From an uncultured Alphaproteobacteria bacterium (GTDB taxonomy: Bacteria > Pseudomonadota > Alphaproteobacteria > HIMB59), in contig CACKEA010000002.1 of the NCBI GenBank assembly GCA_902599045.1, positions 124,001 to 188,000 of the forward strand: DNA of 64,000 nt. Direction: 5' to 3'. The position numbers and the translations under genes were made by a program. Positions 27,833 to 32,790 of this stretch are shown here, one piece after another (the stretch's first letter is position 1; each line of letters starts with the position of its first letter). The notes below the pieces were generated by a model. That model was not told where the DNA came from. It ran no database searches and saw only the letters and a program-made list of their open reading frames with translations.

Positions 27833-27909
27833 GGGCGTGTAGCTCAGCTGGTTAGAGTACTTGCTCGACACGCAAGGGGTCACAGGTTCGAATCCTGTCA
27901 CGCCCACCA
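27833..27909 (+). tRNA. tRNA-Val (GAC), with C at position 33
   Basis: A complete 77-base cloverleaf with encoded CCA: acceptor GGGCGTG/CACGCCC, D stem GCTC/GAGT, anticodon stem CTTGC/GCAAG, T stem ACAGG/CCTGT with TTCGAAT loop and discriminator A. The anticodon loop is T-C-GAC-A-C, so the anticodon is GAC (valine) but base 33 is C instead of the nearly universal T. A35, C36 and A73 fit valine identity. It lies 56 bases after murJ and 3 bases before the convergent lyase-like gene. Confidence 0.88.
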
Positions 27910-27912
27910 TGA

Positions 27913-29778
27913 TTAATTGAATTTTTCAAGATCAAGTGTTCCACCTATAAGTATTAATCCTTGAAAAAGGTTTTTTAAACTCTCATGTTCTACATTTCTA
28001 GCATAGCAAGAAAATACCTCCTCTAATTCTTCCCATCCATCACGAATTGGTACCTCGATTTCATATGTATCTGAGTCCTCTAATTTTCCGCACTCTTTAA
28101 GTAATTTTAGCCAATCTAAAAATGACGTTGGATTTAAGTTAAAAAAATCTTTTAGGATATAGTTAATATTTATTCTTTTTTCTTTTACATAGTAATTTAT
28201 TTCTCCCTTTATTAAGACACCACTGTCACGATGCTTAACCTCATCAAAAGAAAAAATATATTTCGTAGATTTCCCATCAACTTTTGGAAGTTTTTTTTCA
28301 ACCAACGTATAATTCCCAATTGAAAAATCTTTTGAAGATTTTAAATTATATTTATTTGAAGTGTCTAAAACGACTCCAATATTTTTAAGTGCTTCTGGTA
28401 ATTTTTTAGAATGATCATCTTTTTGAGTTTCTTCTATTTTTTCTATGTCTAAATTTGATAATTCATCTTTACAAAGGGTAGGAGATTTATTTGCTAGATA
28501 GACCTCACGAATATCTACTGTAATAAAAGATCCTATTGCACTGATATTTCTGTCAGTAGGTAATGAATCACATGGAGCTAGATTTGCTAATTCTGGCTTA
28601 TAATTTTCAATGTATCTTGGTGATTTATAAACAACATGTGATTTAGTCCACTTTATCAATCGATCTTCATTAGTTAATTTTGTCCAATCTTTATATATTG
28701 TGCCTTTTGTAGCCCACTCACGCTTTGCATATTTTTCTAATAAAGAAATATTATCTACAATTTCAAATTGCTTATCCATAATTTCTTTGACTGTCATCCC
28801 ATGGCGATTTTGATATTCAAAAAAATTAAAATTTAGAGAATGAAAAGCCTCAGCTAATATAGAAATCATTGGTGCAACATCTTTAGAATAATCCCATGCT
28901 AAAGCCCCTCTAGTTGCCCATGTCACAAATATTCCCTCTTCGTCAAAAACTTCAAGCATGAAACGAATATTATAAATAGCTAAATCTAATAGCTCTTGAT
29001 CTTGAAATCTAATAGCAGAAAATAATTGAGCGACACTCATCTTCCAACGATTAGATCCACAAGTATTTACATCTGGAGGTTTTTTTAAATTCTTATTTCC
29101 AATATTTTTTTGCTTAAATGGGTCACAAAGAACTCTATCATTATAATTTCCTACTTTTTCCATATCTAATGTTTTGAGTTTTAACAAAAAATACTTTTTT
29201 AAAATCTCTCTCTCATCTTCTGAATAATCAAAATAATCATAGTAAAAAGAATAAAAAGTTGCATTTGTAGTAATAAAAGCCACAGAATCATACCTGGCAC
29301 TTGAGAAATCATTTGGGAGAACTTTACCTTTTACAGAGTCTGTCTTTGCAACCTTCAATAAAACTTCTTGATGAAAAGATATGTCTCTCGATGTATGAAA
29401 GTATAATGGAAAAAATCCATTGCATTTATTACTACCCTTTATATCAAAATTAATTGTATAGTTTTCTATACATTCTTTTGCTTTTTCTAATTGGTTTGAA
29501 GGCACTTCTCTAATTTTTATTAAATTAAAATTATTAAGAGCATTGTTGTCACTTGAAAAAGGCCAAATGTTATTTATTTTAATTTTTGTTATTGGATCAT
29601 TATAATATTCTTCTCCAAATACTCTTTTAATTCTCTTTTGTAAGTCTATTATTTTTTTATTTGACTCAATTTTTTCAGTTGTATCAACTTGTTTTCCATC
29701 TTTAAAAGTTAAAGCGTTTAATGAATAAGTATTCGTAATTAACAGAAAAAGGAAGAAAAAATTTCTAATCAAAATCAT
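27913..29778 (-). CDS. secreted alginate lyase-like (PL5-type toroid) protein
   Basis: 621 residues with a signal peptide (MILIRNFFFLFLLITNTYSLNA). Residues about 240-340 resemble the alginate-lyase alpha/alpha toroid: SNRWKMSVAQLFSAIRFQDQELLDLAIYNIRFML, then EEGIFVTWATRGALAWDYSKDVAPMISILAEAF. The Arg and Tyr of the PL5 active site have counterparts (TRGALAWDY), but the NNH motif reads C-G-S-N-R-W, so the Asn-His pair is not kept. The N-terminal 200 and C-terminal 200 residues match nothing I recognise; several cysteines may form disulfides. A polysaccharide-binding or altered-specificity role is possible. It converges on the tRNA. Confidence 0.5.
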   Translation of the reverse strand: MILIRNFFFLFLLITNTYSLNALTFKDGKQVDTTEKIESNKKIIDLQKRIKRVFGEEYYNDPITKIKINNIWPFSSDNNALNNFNLIKIREVPSNQLEKAKECIENYTINFDIKGSNKCNGFFPLYFHTSRDISFHQEVLLKVAKTDSVKGKVLPNDFSSARYDSVAFITTNATFYSFYYDYFDYSEDEREILKKYFLLKLKTLDMEKVGNYNDRVLCDPFKQKNIGNKNLKKPPDVNTCGSNRWKMSVAQLFSAIRFQDQELLDLAIYNIRFMLEVFDEEGIFVTWATRGALAWDYSKDVAPMISILAEAFHSLNFNFFEYQNRHGMTVKEIMDKQFEIVDNISLLEKYAKREWATKGTIYKDWTKLTNEDRLIKWTKSHVVYKSPRYIENYKPELANLAPCDSLPTDRNISAIGSFITVDIREVYLANKSPTLCKDELSNLDIEKIEETQKDDHSKKLPEALKNIGVVLDTSNKYNLKSSKDFSIGNYTLVEKKLPKVDGKSTKYIFSFDEVKHRDSGVLIKGEINYYVKEKRININYILKDFFNLNPTSFLDWLKLLKECGKLEDSDTYEIEVPIRDGWEELEEVFSCYARNVEHESLKNLFQGLILIGGTLDLEKFN

Positions 29779-29896: not shown

Positions 29897-30382
29897 ATGT
29901 TTAAAAAATTTCTTTTAACTATCATTTTATATTACTTAACTAGTGGATCACTTCATGCAAATAGCTACTCTATTTTTGGAGGCACTTATGATTATGATGA
30001 TGATAACACAACTAATTTAATTGGATTAAATTACCATATATCAAATAGTGAAATAGATTTATTAAGTATTTTAACAATAAACCCTGTTGTTGGTGGATTA
30101 GTCACTGCTAAAAGTGCAAGTATGTTTTATGGTGGTTTTGAAACAAATTTAGGTTCTGATTTAATTTATTTAAATCTTTCTTCTTCAGCAGGTATTTATA
30201 GTAATGGTGATGGTAAAGATTTAGGAAGTGCTATCCAATTTAAGTCAGAAGTTAATTTACTCTATAGTTTATCTGATAAGACTCGAATTGGCATTGGTTC
30301 CCATCATATTTCAAACGCTGGTTTAGACTCTGTAAATCCAGGGACTAATAATTTTTACTTGATTTTTAATAGAAATTTCTAG
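29897..30382 (+). CDS. PagL-like lipid A 3-O-deacylase family outer-membrane protein
   Basis: 161 residues: signal peptide ending LHA-NS (about residue 21), then alternating beta strands ending in Phe, as in an 8-stranded outer-membrane barrel. The PagL signature is clear: IQFKSEVNLLYSLSDKTRIGIGSHHISNAGLDSVNPGT. H137 and S139 match the catalytic His and Ser; the acidic residue expected at 151 (NPGxE) is Asn. PagL removes the 3-linked acyl chain of lipid A. Activity here is uncertain because of that change. Confidence 0.78.
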   Translation: MFKKFLLTIILYYLTSGSLHANSYSIFGGTYDYDDDNTTNLIGLNYHISNSEIDLLSILTINPVVGGLVTAKSASMFYGGFETNLGSDLIYLNLSSSAGIYSNGDGKDLGSAIQFKSEVNLLYSLSDKTRIGIGSHHISNAGLDSVNPGTNNFYLIFNRNF

Positions 30383-30439: not shown

Positions 30440-31297
30440 ATGACTAAAAACTTCTTAGCCTATCTTTCATTTTCAATCCTAATTGTAATAATTTTAGTAA
30501 TTGGCTATGAAGAAATTAAAATTTACTTCGATGCTAATCCTTATATAAACGGAATAATTCTTCTAACACTTGTGATTGGATTTCTCCTTTACTCATTTAA
30601 AATATTTTCATTGAGTTCCGAGTTTAGGTTCATGAACTCTGTGGCTTTTGGAAAATTAAAACTTAATGACTCATCTTTAAATAACTACCCGATGACAAAA
30701 TCTATTGCAAATAATTTAGGAATAACAACAGTAAATAAAAATATTACAAAAACACTTGATGAAATACTTGATGATCTTCTATCTTCTATAGAAAGTGGGA
30801 GTGATATATCCAAGTACCTTGTCAATTTAGCTATTTTTTTAGGATTAATTGGAACTTTTTATGGATTACTTTTGACTATAGGTAGTGTCTCAAATGTGAT
30901 CGATGGTTTAACAATTGAACAGCAAGACTTTGGAGCGTTTTTTAACAATTTAAAAGACGGATTGAAGTCACCTTTATCAGGAATGACTATTGCTTTTAGT
31001 TCCTCATTGTTTGGTTTAGTAACTTCTTTGATATTAGGCCTTTATGAAATTATTACTAGAGGAGTCAAGCAAAGTTACTATGAATTCTGTGAAAATCAAA
31101 TTCGCCTTTTTTATAGATCTAGCCCAAATGTAAAAAAAATTACTCAAAATTTTGATAATTCATCTTTGGCCCAAAACATTGCTTCTAAACTTGATGATCT
31201 AGTTGATGGAATTAAAAATTCTAGTGATGATTTAAGAAAAGAAGTTATTACAGAGCTTAAGTCTGTAAGTAAGTCTATCAAAGACCTAGAAAAATAG
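30440..31297 (+). CDS. MotA/TolQ/ExbB-like proton channel subunit
   Basis: 285 residues with four hydrophobic segments: two near the N-terminus (about 8-25 and 37-57), then NLAIFLGLIGTFYGLLLTIGSV (about 130-150) and GMTIAFSSSLFGLVTSLILGL (about 181-201). The GLIGTFYGLL and SGMTIAFSSSLFGL stretches are the channel-lining signatures of MotA/TolQ/ExbB. A C-terminal coil of about 60 residues lies in the cytoplasm. With the next gene it should form a proton-driven stator. It shares 1 base with the next gene (TAGTG). No flagellar or Ton/Tol genes are nearby. Confidence 0.82.
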   Translation: MTKNFLAYLSFSILIVIILVIGYEEIKIYFDANPYINGIILLTLVIGFLLYSFKIFSLSSEFRFMNSVAFGKLKLNDSSLNNYPMTKSIANNLGITTVNKNITKTLDEILDDLLSSIESGSDISKYLVNLAIFLGLIGTFYGLLLTIGSVSNVIDGLTIEQQDFGAFFNNLKDGLKSPLSGMTIAFSSSLFGLVTSLILGLYEIITRGVKQSYYEFCENQIRLFYRSSPNVKKITQNFDNSSLAQNIASKLDDLVDGIKNSSDDLRKEVITELKSVSKSIKDLEK

Positions 31298-32790
31298 TGA
31301 GCTATCTCTCAAAAACTCAAAGCTCAGACAACGATAATATAATTTGGCCCGGATTTGTGGATGTATTGGCTTCCACTTTAATGGTTATAATCTTCATTGT
31401 TTTACTTTTTACAGTAGCGCAAGTTTATCTGGGTGACTTAGTTGTTGGTAAAAATGAACAAATCCAAAATCTTGAAAAAACAATAGAGATTCAAGACGAA
31501 ACAATAGTCGAACAAGATATTACTTTAACAGATAAAGAAATAGCTTTGTTGGAAAGACAAGAGATAATTGAACAACTGGATACTGAGATAGAAATTTTAG
31601 ATGATGAGATACAAATTAAACAATCTGAAATTTTTGAAAAAGAAGATTTATTATCTGCTAAAGATCAAGAAATATCTTTGCAGGATGCACTAATTTCTGA
31701 AAAAGAAAATTTATTATCTTCTAAAGATCAAGAAATATCTTTGCAGGATGCACTTATTGATCAAAAAGATGAAAAAATACTTACACTTGATGATTTAATT
31801 GAAAAACAAGCTTTAGATATTGACAAATTAAATCAGATGATTGCCCAAATTACTGAAGAGTTATCTCTTTCTCTTCAAGATAAGAAACAACTTCAAGGAA
31901 AGTTGGAAATCTTAAATAAAGAGCAAGAAATATTAAAAAATAATTTGAGCAAATTAGGAGGACAAAACGAAGCTCTTGTAAATCAACTTTCTGACTCTCA
32001 AGGAAAAATTCAATCTCTCCTGAATTCTTTAAGTTCAACTAAAGAATTTAATCAAAATTTGCAGAGTCAGATATCTAAAGTTGAAGGACAGAATCAAGAA
32101 TTAAGAGATCAAATCACTAACTTAGAGGATGTGTCCTCAACAAAAACAACTGATTTAAATGAAGCTTTGGCTAAAATATCTCGATTATCAGATGATATCA
32201 AAATACTGAGCAATGAGATCCAACTCTTAAATAATTTACTAGACTCAAAAGAAGCAGAGATAGCAAGCAGTAAGATTGAGCTTGGAGAACTTGGAGATAG
32301 GCTTAATAGAGTTTTAACAAGTGAATTATTTAAATTACAACAATATAAATCTGAATTTTTTGGGAAACTGTCAGAGGCGCTTGGTGATAGGGATGATATC
32401 CAAATAAAAGGAGATAGGTTTATATTCCAATCAGAAATTTTATTTGACTCAGGTACTGCTGAAATTCAAACTCAAGGAAGAGTGGCATTATCTCTGATAG
32501 CTAAAACTTTAATAGATTTGTCTGACCAAATACCATCAGAACTTAACTGGATACTTCAAGTAGACGGACATACAGATAAAGTTCCTATTTCGACTAATCA
32601 GTTTCCCTCTAATTGGGAATTGTCACATGCTAGAGCTTTAGAGGTTGTGAAATTCTTTATACAACAAGGCATCCCAGCGAATAAATTATCTGCTAATGGA
32701 TATGGAGAGTTTCAACCTATTAATTTGGGAGACGCTATTGAGGACTTAAAACAAAATAGAAGAATAGAGTTAAAAATTACTCAAAACTAA
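31297..32790 (+). CDS. MotB/OmpA-like protein with long periplasmic coiled coil
   Basis: 497 residues from a GTG start. Near the N-terminus WPGFVDVLASTLMVIIFIVLLFTVAQ is a MotB-type membrane helix with the proton-carrying Asp at D22. Residues about 50-345 are a nearly uninterrupted coiled coil, including a duplicated 21-residue unit. The C-terminal OmpA domain (about 355-497) has ILFDSGTAEIQ, VDGHTDKVPI, NWELSHARALEV and NRRIELKI, the peptidoglycan-binding signature. It should be the stator partner of the MotA-like gene, reaching peptidoglycan through an unusually long stalk. ZorB of the Zorya defence system is related but no zorC/D/E is present. Confidence 0.82.
   Translation: MSYLSKTQSSDNDNIIWPGFVDVLASTLMVIIFIVLLFTVAQVYLGDLVVGKNEQIQNLEKTIEIQDETIVEQDITLTDKEIALLERQEIIEQLDTEIEILDDEIQIKQSEIFEKEDLLSAKDQEISLQDALISEKENLLSSKDQEISLQDALIDQKDEKILTLDDLIEKQALDIDKLNQMIAQITEELSLSLQDKKQLQGKLEILNKEQEILKNNLSKLGGQNEALVNQLSDSQGKIQSLLNSLSSTKEFNQNLQSQISKVEGQNQELRDQITNLEDVSSTKTTDLNEALAKISRLSDDIKILSNEIQLLNNLLDSKEAEIASSKIELGELGDRLNRVLTSELFKLQQYKSEFFGKLSEALGDRDDIQIKGDRFIFQSEILFDSGTAEIQTQGRVALSLIAKTLIDLSDQIPSELNWILQVDGHTDKVPISTNQFPSNWELSHARALEVVKFFIQQGIPANKLSANGYGEFQPINLGDAIEDLKQNRRIELKITQN
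31636..31761 (+). repeat. 63-bp tandem duplication in the coiled-coil coding region
   Basis: Two adjacent nearly identical 63-base units (31636-31698 and 31699-31761). Each encodes 21 residues: EKEDLLSAKDQEISLQDALIS and the near-copy beginning EKENLLSSKDQ. Twenty-one residues is three heptads, so the coiled-coil register is kept. Confidence 0.9.

Follow-up and report, generated by a model that had tools for sequence, protein, structure and literature searches.

A ZorA-like channel protein and an OmpA-type partner with a coiled-coil rod of heptad-locked length form a conserved gene pair in Alphaproteobacteria

The gene pair and its surroundings

The window analysed here is a stretch of 64,000 nucleotides from an uncultured alphaproteobacterium of the HIMB59 lineage (assembly GCA_902599045.1, contig CACKEA010000002.1, positions 124,001 to 188,000). 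Two adjacent open reading frames on its forward strand encode a protein of 285 residues (A; 30440..31297) and one of 497 residues (B; 31297..32790). The frames overlap by a single base, with the TAG stop codon of A at 31295-31297 and the GTG start codon of B at 31297, and the two proteins are therefore probably translated together. A matches Pfam PF01618 (MotA_ExbB) with 26.7 bits (cut-off 22.9), and B matches the Pfam OmpA family (PF00691, over residues 382-488) with 57.8 bits (cut-off 27.2), in agreement with the first-pass annotation, which had described a two-gene unit of a MotA-like and a MotB/OmpA-like protein. B also scores 325.5 bits against NCBIfam NF006543 (PRK09039.1-2, 'peptidoglycan-binding protein'), above the curated cut-off of 305, and is thus a member of that family. 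This membership was computed directly, as were the conservation of residues, the genomic context and the heptad-locked length reported below.

The AlphaFold2 model of A (mean pLDDT 83.6) displays four long helices, as expected for a channel protein of the MotA/ExbB/ZorA type with four transmembrane (TM) segments. Only short helices are predicted between TM2 and TM3, and the C-terminal tail is short, helical and cytoplasmic. In B, a TM helix with a channel aspartate, Asp22, is followed by a coiled coil (residues 49-362; 31441..32382, forward strand) and an OmpA-type peptidoglycan-binding domain (residues 373-497; 32413..32787, forward strand); in its AlphaFold2 model, residues 20-220 and 225-362 are helical, separated by a break, and residues 368-496 adopt an OmpA fold. 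The solved sequences nearest to this last domain are those of MotB and MotS. Three residues of A (T139, T146 and S189) are invariant among 58 homologues, as are Asp22, Asp427 and Arg446 of B among 37. Asp427 and Arg446 are the peptidoglycan-binding Asp and Arg, and Asp22 together with T139 and S189 of A corresponds, in an alignment to ExbB T148/T181 made by eye, to the ion-path residues of ExbBD-type motors.

A PagL-like outer-membrane protein is encoded 58 bp upstream of A on the same strand (29897..30382; Pfam PF09411, 50.4 bits), as had been recognised at first pass. Most genus members carry its gene just ahead of A, but two deeper ones (L038 and L039) and the sister family do not have it at this locus; it is a genus-level neighbour that lies outside the wider A-B family unit. 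Further upstream, a frame of 621 residues that had been called lyase-like (27913-29778) adjoins a tRNA-Val gene and gave nothing above threshold in Pfam or NCBIfam. It interrupts the order MurJ-PagL-A-B (27833-29778 in the window). Among the compared relatives it was detected in L006 alone, and it is therefore probably a small recent insertion at tRNA-Val. In other lineages, A and B are accompanied by EF-P-like and inositol-monophosphatase-like (efp-suhB-like) genes (Rhizobiales and Rhodospirillales), by a ChaC-like gene (Rhodobacterales) or by a CFA-synthase-like gene (sister family), names that reflect sequence recognition and not Pfam matches. The neighbourhood analysis that had been suggested as a check thus returned B as the only constant neighbour of A, and since the others change between lineages, the context names no single partner. 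The lipid A and polysaccharide surroundings are uninformative on the function of the pair. We considered a functional tie to PagL, MurJ, DsbA, cyclophilin and the 'lyase' and rejected it, these neighbours being lineage-specific; the proposal that the pair forms one system with the PagL-like and lyase-like proteins finds no support.

A further gene, C, was found directly upstream of A at 19 loci (L103:8831-9829, L108:9207-9851 and L081:9089-9967, plus 16 more) in Rhodospirillales, Acetobacteraceae and some marine lineages. Its product is secreted and combines a Pro-rich linker with an OmpA-like domain that has degenerated: the Asp of the peptidoglycan site is lost and the Arg retained. C is a possible third component in the lineages that carry it. 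As a general third component it was rejected, there being no A-linked copy in 40 genomes of this order; most other lineages likewise have no gene C beside A. Sister-family genomes contain an unlinked frame of about 300 residues with a degenerate OmpA-like domain (G051:C12:18152-18418 and similar places), which may be a copy of C moved to another site or, alternatively, a porin of the OmpA type.

Relatives of A and distribution of the pair

Profile comparisons of A using hhalign yielded 96% for ZorA, 38% for ExbB, 28% for TolQ and 7% for MotA. Comparison of the A model with folds in the PDB returned ZorA (8vvn) as the best match, albeit a weak one (E 1.3e-3). By profile and by fold, ZorA is therefore the nearest characterised relative of A. 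When the phylum was searched with A, all strong matches were alphaproteobacterial except for five genomes, and the next-best group, consisting of genuine ZorA, followed after a large gap (200 versus at most 68 bits). In a tree of A with MotA, TolQ, ExbB and ZorA, the A protein of the window clusters with those of its order-mates; the deep part of this tree is unreliable, with ZorA and MotA/TolQ at the end of branches 5 to 8 changes per site long, so that profile scores were preferred, and the joining of ZorA inside the A family is probably due to long-branch attraction.

The kinship with ZorA brings up the possibility that the pair is a Zorya-like anti-phage device, i.e. a ZorAB sensor-motor whose effectors are encoded elsewhere or have been lost. 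Both systems have a B subunit of the OmpA type, and the published Zorya defence requires the peptidoglycan-binding domain of ZorB as well as the cytoplasmic extension of ZorA (PMC11890865). However, the tail of A is far shorter than that of the ZorA proteins, which comprise about 700 residues, and none of the ZorA/ZorB models matched the pair with a family-level score (26.2 bits for NF033915, cut-off 100). Nothing above weak ZorA matches was obtained from 190 genomes of the class, and the pair occurs as a single copy in about two-thirds of alphaproteobacterial genomes, unlike scattered defence genes. No ZorC, ZorD or ZorE was seen near the pair, the identified flanking genes in the window belonging to housekeeping families (PADLOC covered A and B only), and no shared effector-like gene was found beside it in other lineages. 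With the ZorA score below cut-off and no adjacent effector, membership of Zorya was rejected, and a defence function of this kind appears very unlikely.

A is present in 51 of 60 genus- and order-mates, and in 16 of the 17 of these that are at least 90% complete. Across the class Alphaproteobacteria it was found in 165 of 241 genomes, as one copy each with few exceptions; the carriers include Bradyrhizobium, Azospirillum, Acetobacter, relatives of Roseobacter and SAR116, among others. About one-third of the genomes are without the pair, which is thus not universally essential. B directly adjoins A in every usable locus of the 92 obtained, two or three being cut by contig ends or carrying mis-called frames. 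The family is defined by A followed directly by B in single copy, which is the arrangement in the window. The pair was also seen on contigs L079, L131, L141 and L144, labelled Gammaproteobacteria (Tahibacter, Thiohalocapsa) and Desulfobacula; these occurrences represent either transfer or mis-binned contigs of metagenome-assembled genomes.

Automated names, as well as the literature on Komagataeibacter hansenii discussed below, call such pairs MotA/MotB, and the proximity of the OmpA domain of B to those of MotB and MotS would fit a conventional stator of the flagellum (MotAB/PomAB), encoded in a genome whose flagellar genes are missing or incomplete. Nevertheless, no flagellar gene was found beside the pair, and no match to FliF was detected in this genome (95% complete), in G029 (a genus member in one contig, 99% complete) or in two more genomes of the genus and order. 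Over the 241 genomes, 102 contained both the pair and FliF, 63 the pair only, 43 FliF only and 33 neither (Fisher p = 0.48); the presence of the pair is thus independent of FliF, which 63 of its 165 carriers do not have. As A also fails the homology comparison to E. coli MotA, membership of a flagellar stator was rejected, and we regard this explanation as extremely unlikely. The non-flagellar character claimed at first pass is borne out.

This genome encodes only two MotA_ExbB proteins, A and a second one (G000:C3); a Pal-like OmpA protein is encoded about 3 kb away from this second one, which we therefore read as TolQ. Because TolQ lies elsewhere, A has four TM segments and B is of the OmpA type, the pair was also rejected as a member of Tol-Pal or Ton. 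The pair is also not part of a split Tol or Zorya operon, the other identity against which it was to be checked.

The coiled-coil rod and its length

The coiled coil predicted at first pass is indeed present and heptad-periodic, although it measures 314 residues rather than about 295. Its hydrophobic residues recur with a period of 3.5 residues at a power of 21.4, compared with 5.8 for the 95th percentile of shuffled sequences. To compare rods between genomes, we measured their length between two invariant points, the channel residue Asp22 and Gly372 of the OmpA domain; in the window, these are 350 residues, or exactly 50 heptads, apart. In nine members of the genus, the differences in rod length were all whole numbers of heptads (-13, -10, -9, -6, -3, -3, -1, 0 and +1). 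Among 85 loci we found 41 distinct lengths, of which 21 equal 0 mod 7 and 35 equal 0, 3 or 4 mod 7 (p about 2e-8 for chance alone), remainders 3 and 4 being half-heptad shifts that preserve the hydrophobic seam. In a second set of loci, 26 of 27 lengths fell into these same three classes (p about 4e-9); both p-values are indicative, as lengths from related genomes are not fully independent, and the two sets agree. The same comparison showed no heptad pattern in the lengths of the A tails. A variable coil length that is mostly locked to whole or half heptads is the new observation made here.

The coils of B homologues range from 146 to about 860 residues, corresponding to 22 to 128 nm if straight. 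The longest one seen belongs to a Rhodobacteraceae homologue of 1045 residues (L102:4096-7233) and is out of heptad phase (1 mod 7). For B of the window, the straight length would be 47 nm, while the whole periplasm is about 20-30 nm wide. Since the register is kept whatever the length, B is probably one uninterrupted rod that exceeds the width of the periplasm and along which torque or strain could pass between the channel and the wall. A straight rod of 47 nm is longer than the gap between the inner membrane and the wall, and the rod would therefore be tilted, lie flat or be folded back, possibly at the break at residues 221-224.

Rod lengths differ by 10 heptads between relatives whose A proteins are 95-97% identical, so that rod length is no gauge of the distance between membrane and wall. 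The idea of a stalk that spans a long way across the periplasm to reach peptidoglycan is not supported, given this difference and the straight length of 47 nm. How stalk length can change is shown by a tandem repeat of 63 bp within the coil (31629..31769, forward strand; 2.2 copies, Tandem Repeats Finder), the unit of which encodes 21 residues, or three heptads. The question posed by such a rod is why its register should be fixed while its length reaches several periplasm widths.

A putative envelope motor and its place among known systems

K. hansenii, a species without flagella, has adjacent motA and motB genes encoding 348 and 321 residues (PMC6570709, PMC6315621). Judging from lengths, adjacency and taxonomy, these are probable orthologues of A and B; the corresponding lengths in Acetobacter (L081) are 351 and 328 residues. 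Their overexpression led to longer cells, looser cellulose and more colony spreading, and GFP fusions localised to the poles (PMC6570709, PMC6315621); spreading was threefold faster (PMC6570709). With B belonging to a family that is already known (NF006543), the pair present in most alphaproteobacteria and a probable orthologue studied, the proposal of a local, lipid-A-linked and wholly undescribed system is not upheld. We found no loss-of-function phenotype for the pair in the literature, the work on K. hansenii being on overexpression only, and nothing relevant on PRK09039 or in Tn-seq phenotypes. Overexpressed membrane or channel proteins may lengthen cells and drive GFP fusions to the poles non-specifically.

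The accelerated spreading might suggest that the pair powers spreading over surfaces or some other motility apparatus without flagella; AglRS in Myxococcus, a non-flagellar motor driving movement, offers a precedent. Altered cell shape or cellulose can itself cause spreading, however; moreover, no conserved neighbour of the pair was seen that would hint at gliding machinery, and the organism of the window probably lives freely in the sea and has a streamlined genome. We consider such a motility function unlikely. Alternatively, the pair could be a second force transducer of the Tol/Ton type, in which the motor would act on a partner in the outer membrane, pulling or releasing it, instead of working between ring and wall. 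The lengthening of K. hansenii cells resembles the effect of tolQ/tolR overexpression, as discussed in PMC6570709, and gene C, lying directly before A in several lineages, would be a candidate partner. This explanation must contend with the weak profile links of A to TolQ and ExbB, with a B subunit that carries a full peptidoglycan-binding domain and not the TolR/ExbD fold, and with the lineages, including this order, in which C is missing beside A; we judge it doubtful, though it deserves consideration.

Our preferred reading, towards which we lean modestly, is that A and B constitute a non-flagellar, ion-driven and wall-anchored 5:2 envelope motor, of a family conserved across Alphaproteobacteria, with a housekeeping role at the poles or in division. 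By homology to ZorAB, MotAB and ExbBD, which would provide its stoichiometry, rotation and ion coupling, five A subunits would ring the transmembrane helices of two B subunits, and ion flow past Asp22 of B and the Thr/Ser residues of A would rotate the A ring relative to B. The two B chains would form a parallel coiled coil that begins at the channel and leads to the OmpA-type domain, by which peptidoglycan would be held. This rod would link channel and wall mechanically, transmitting torque or strain, and, with a length exceeding the periplasmic width, would lie oblique or flat, or fold back. The motor would probably perform envelope housekeeping at poles or division sites rather than serve motility or defence, a role to which the overexpression and localisation of the probable K. 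hansenii orthologue perhaps point. More speculatively, the family may be a class-wide, wall-anchored rotary motor akin to the ancestor of ZorAB, its coil acting as a torsion shaft or lever along the periplasm that would drive polar growth or outer-membrane constriction in parallel to Tol-Pal; we offer this extended version tentatively.

To our knowledge, functions have been established for only a few of the ion-driven 5:2 motors. The putative motor described here occurs in the majority of alphaproteobacteria, marine cells with streamlined genomes among them, and the pair goes under the annotations 'flagellar MotA/MotB' or 'peptidoglycan-binding protein'. It would offer a non-defence relative for tracing the origin of Zorya, and the K. 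hansenii 'motAB' studies would be recast as studies of the A-B motor.

Comparison with known systems places the pair as follows. Proteins of NF006543/PRK09039 share with B the order of TM helix, coil and OmpA domain and a score above cut-off, but the coil of the window's B is longer, with 314 residues versus 160 in many members from Rhizobiales. The K. hansenii proteins likewise are an adjacent A and B, the latter with one TM helix and an OmpA domain; in contrast to the pair of the window, they were published as flagellar MotAB homologues, their B is much shorter and their host produces cellulose. MotAB and PomAB share the four-TM A subunit and a B subunit with a TM Asp and an OmpA-type domain, whereas the window's pair has no association with flagellar genes, a coiled coil in place of the plug and linker, and an A subunit with no sequence-level link to MotA and without its large torque-generating cytoplasmic domain. 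TolQR and ExbBD have the ion-channel core and the GT motif in the third helix in common with the pair, which differs in having four TM segments in A instead of three, an OmpA domain in B and no adjoining TolA or TonB. A survey of MotAB proteins from 2025, which does not name Alphaproteobacteria, describes 'generic ion transporters' (GIT), whose B subunits are without an OmpA-related domain (PMC12505986). These are non-flagellar operonic A/B pairs, as is the pair of the window, but its B carries such a domain and falls outside the published split, making the family a widespread exception to the rule that non-flagellar B subunits are without it. ZorAB, a 5:2 complex (PMC11890865), comprises the nearest characterised relative of A and a B subunit with a channel Asp and an OmpA-type domain; differences are the long coil on B, the much shorter tail of A, scores far below the family cut-offs, a vicinity in which no ZorC/D/E was seen and the conserved, class-wide distribution. 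Among motors of the 5:2 kind, the A-B pair would be a variant of its own, combining a ZorA-like channel, an OmpA-type anchor and a heptad-locked rod.
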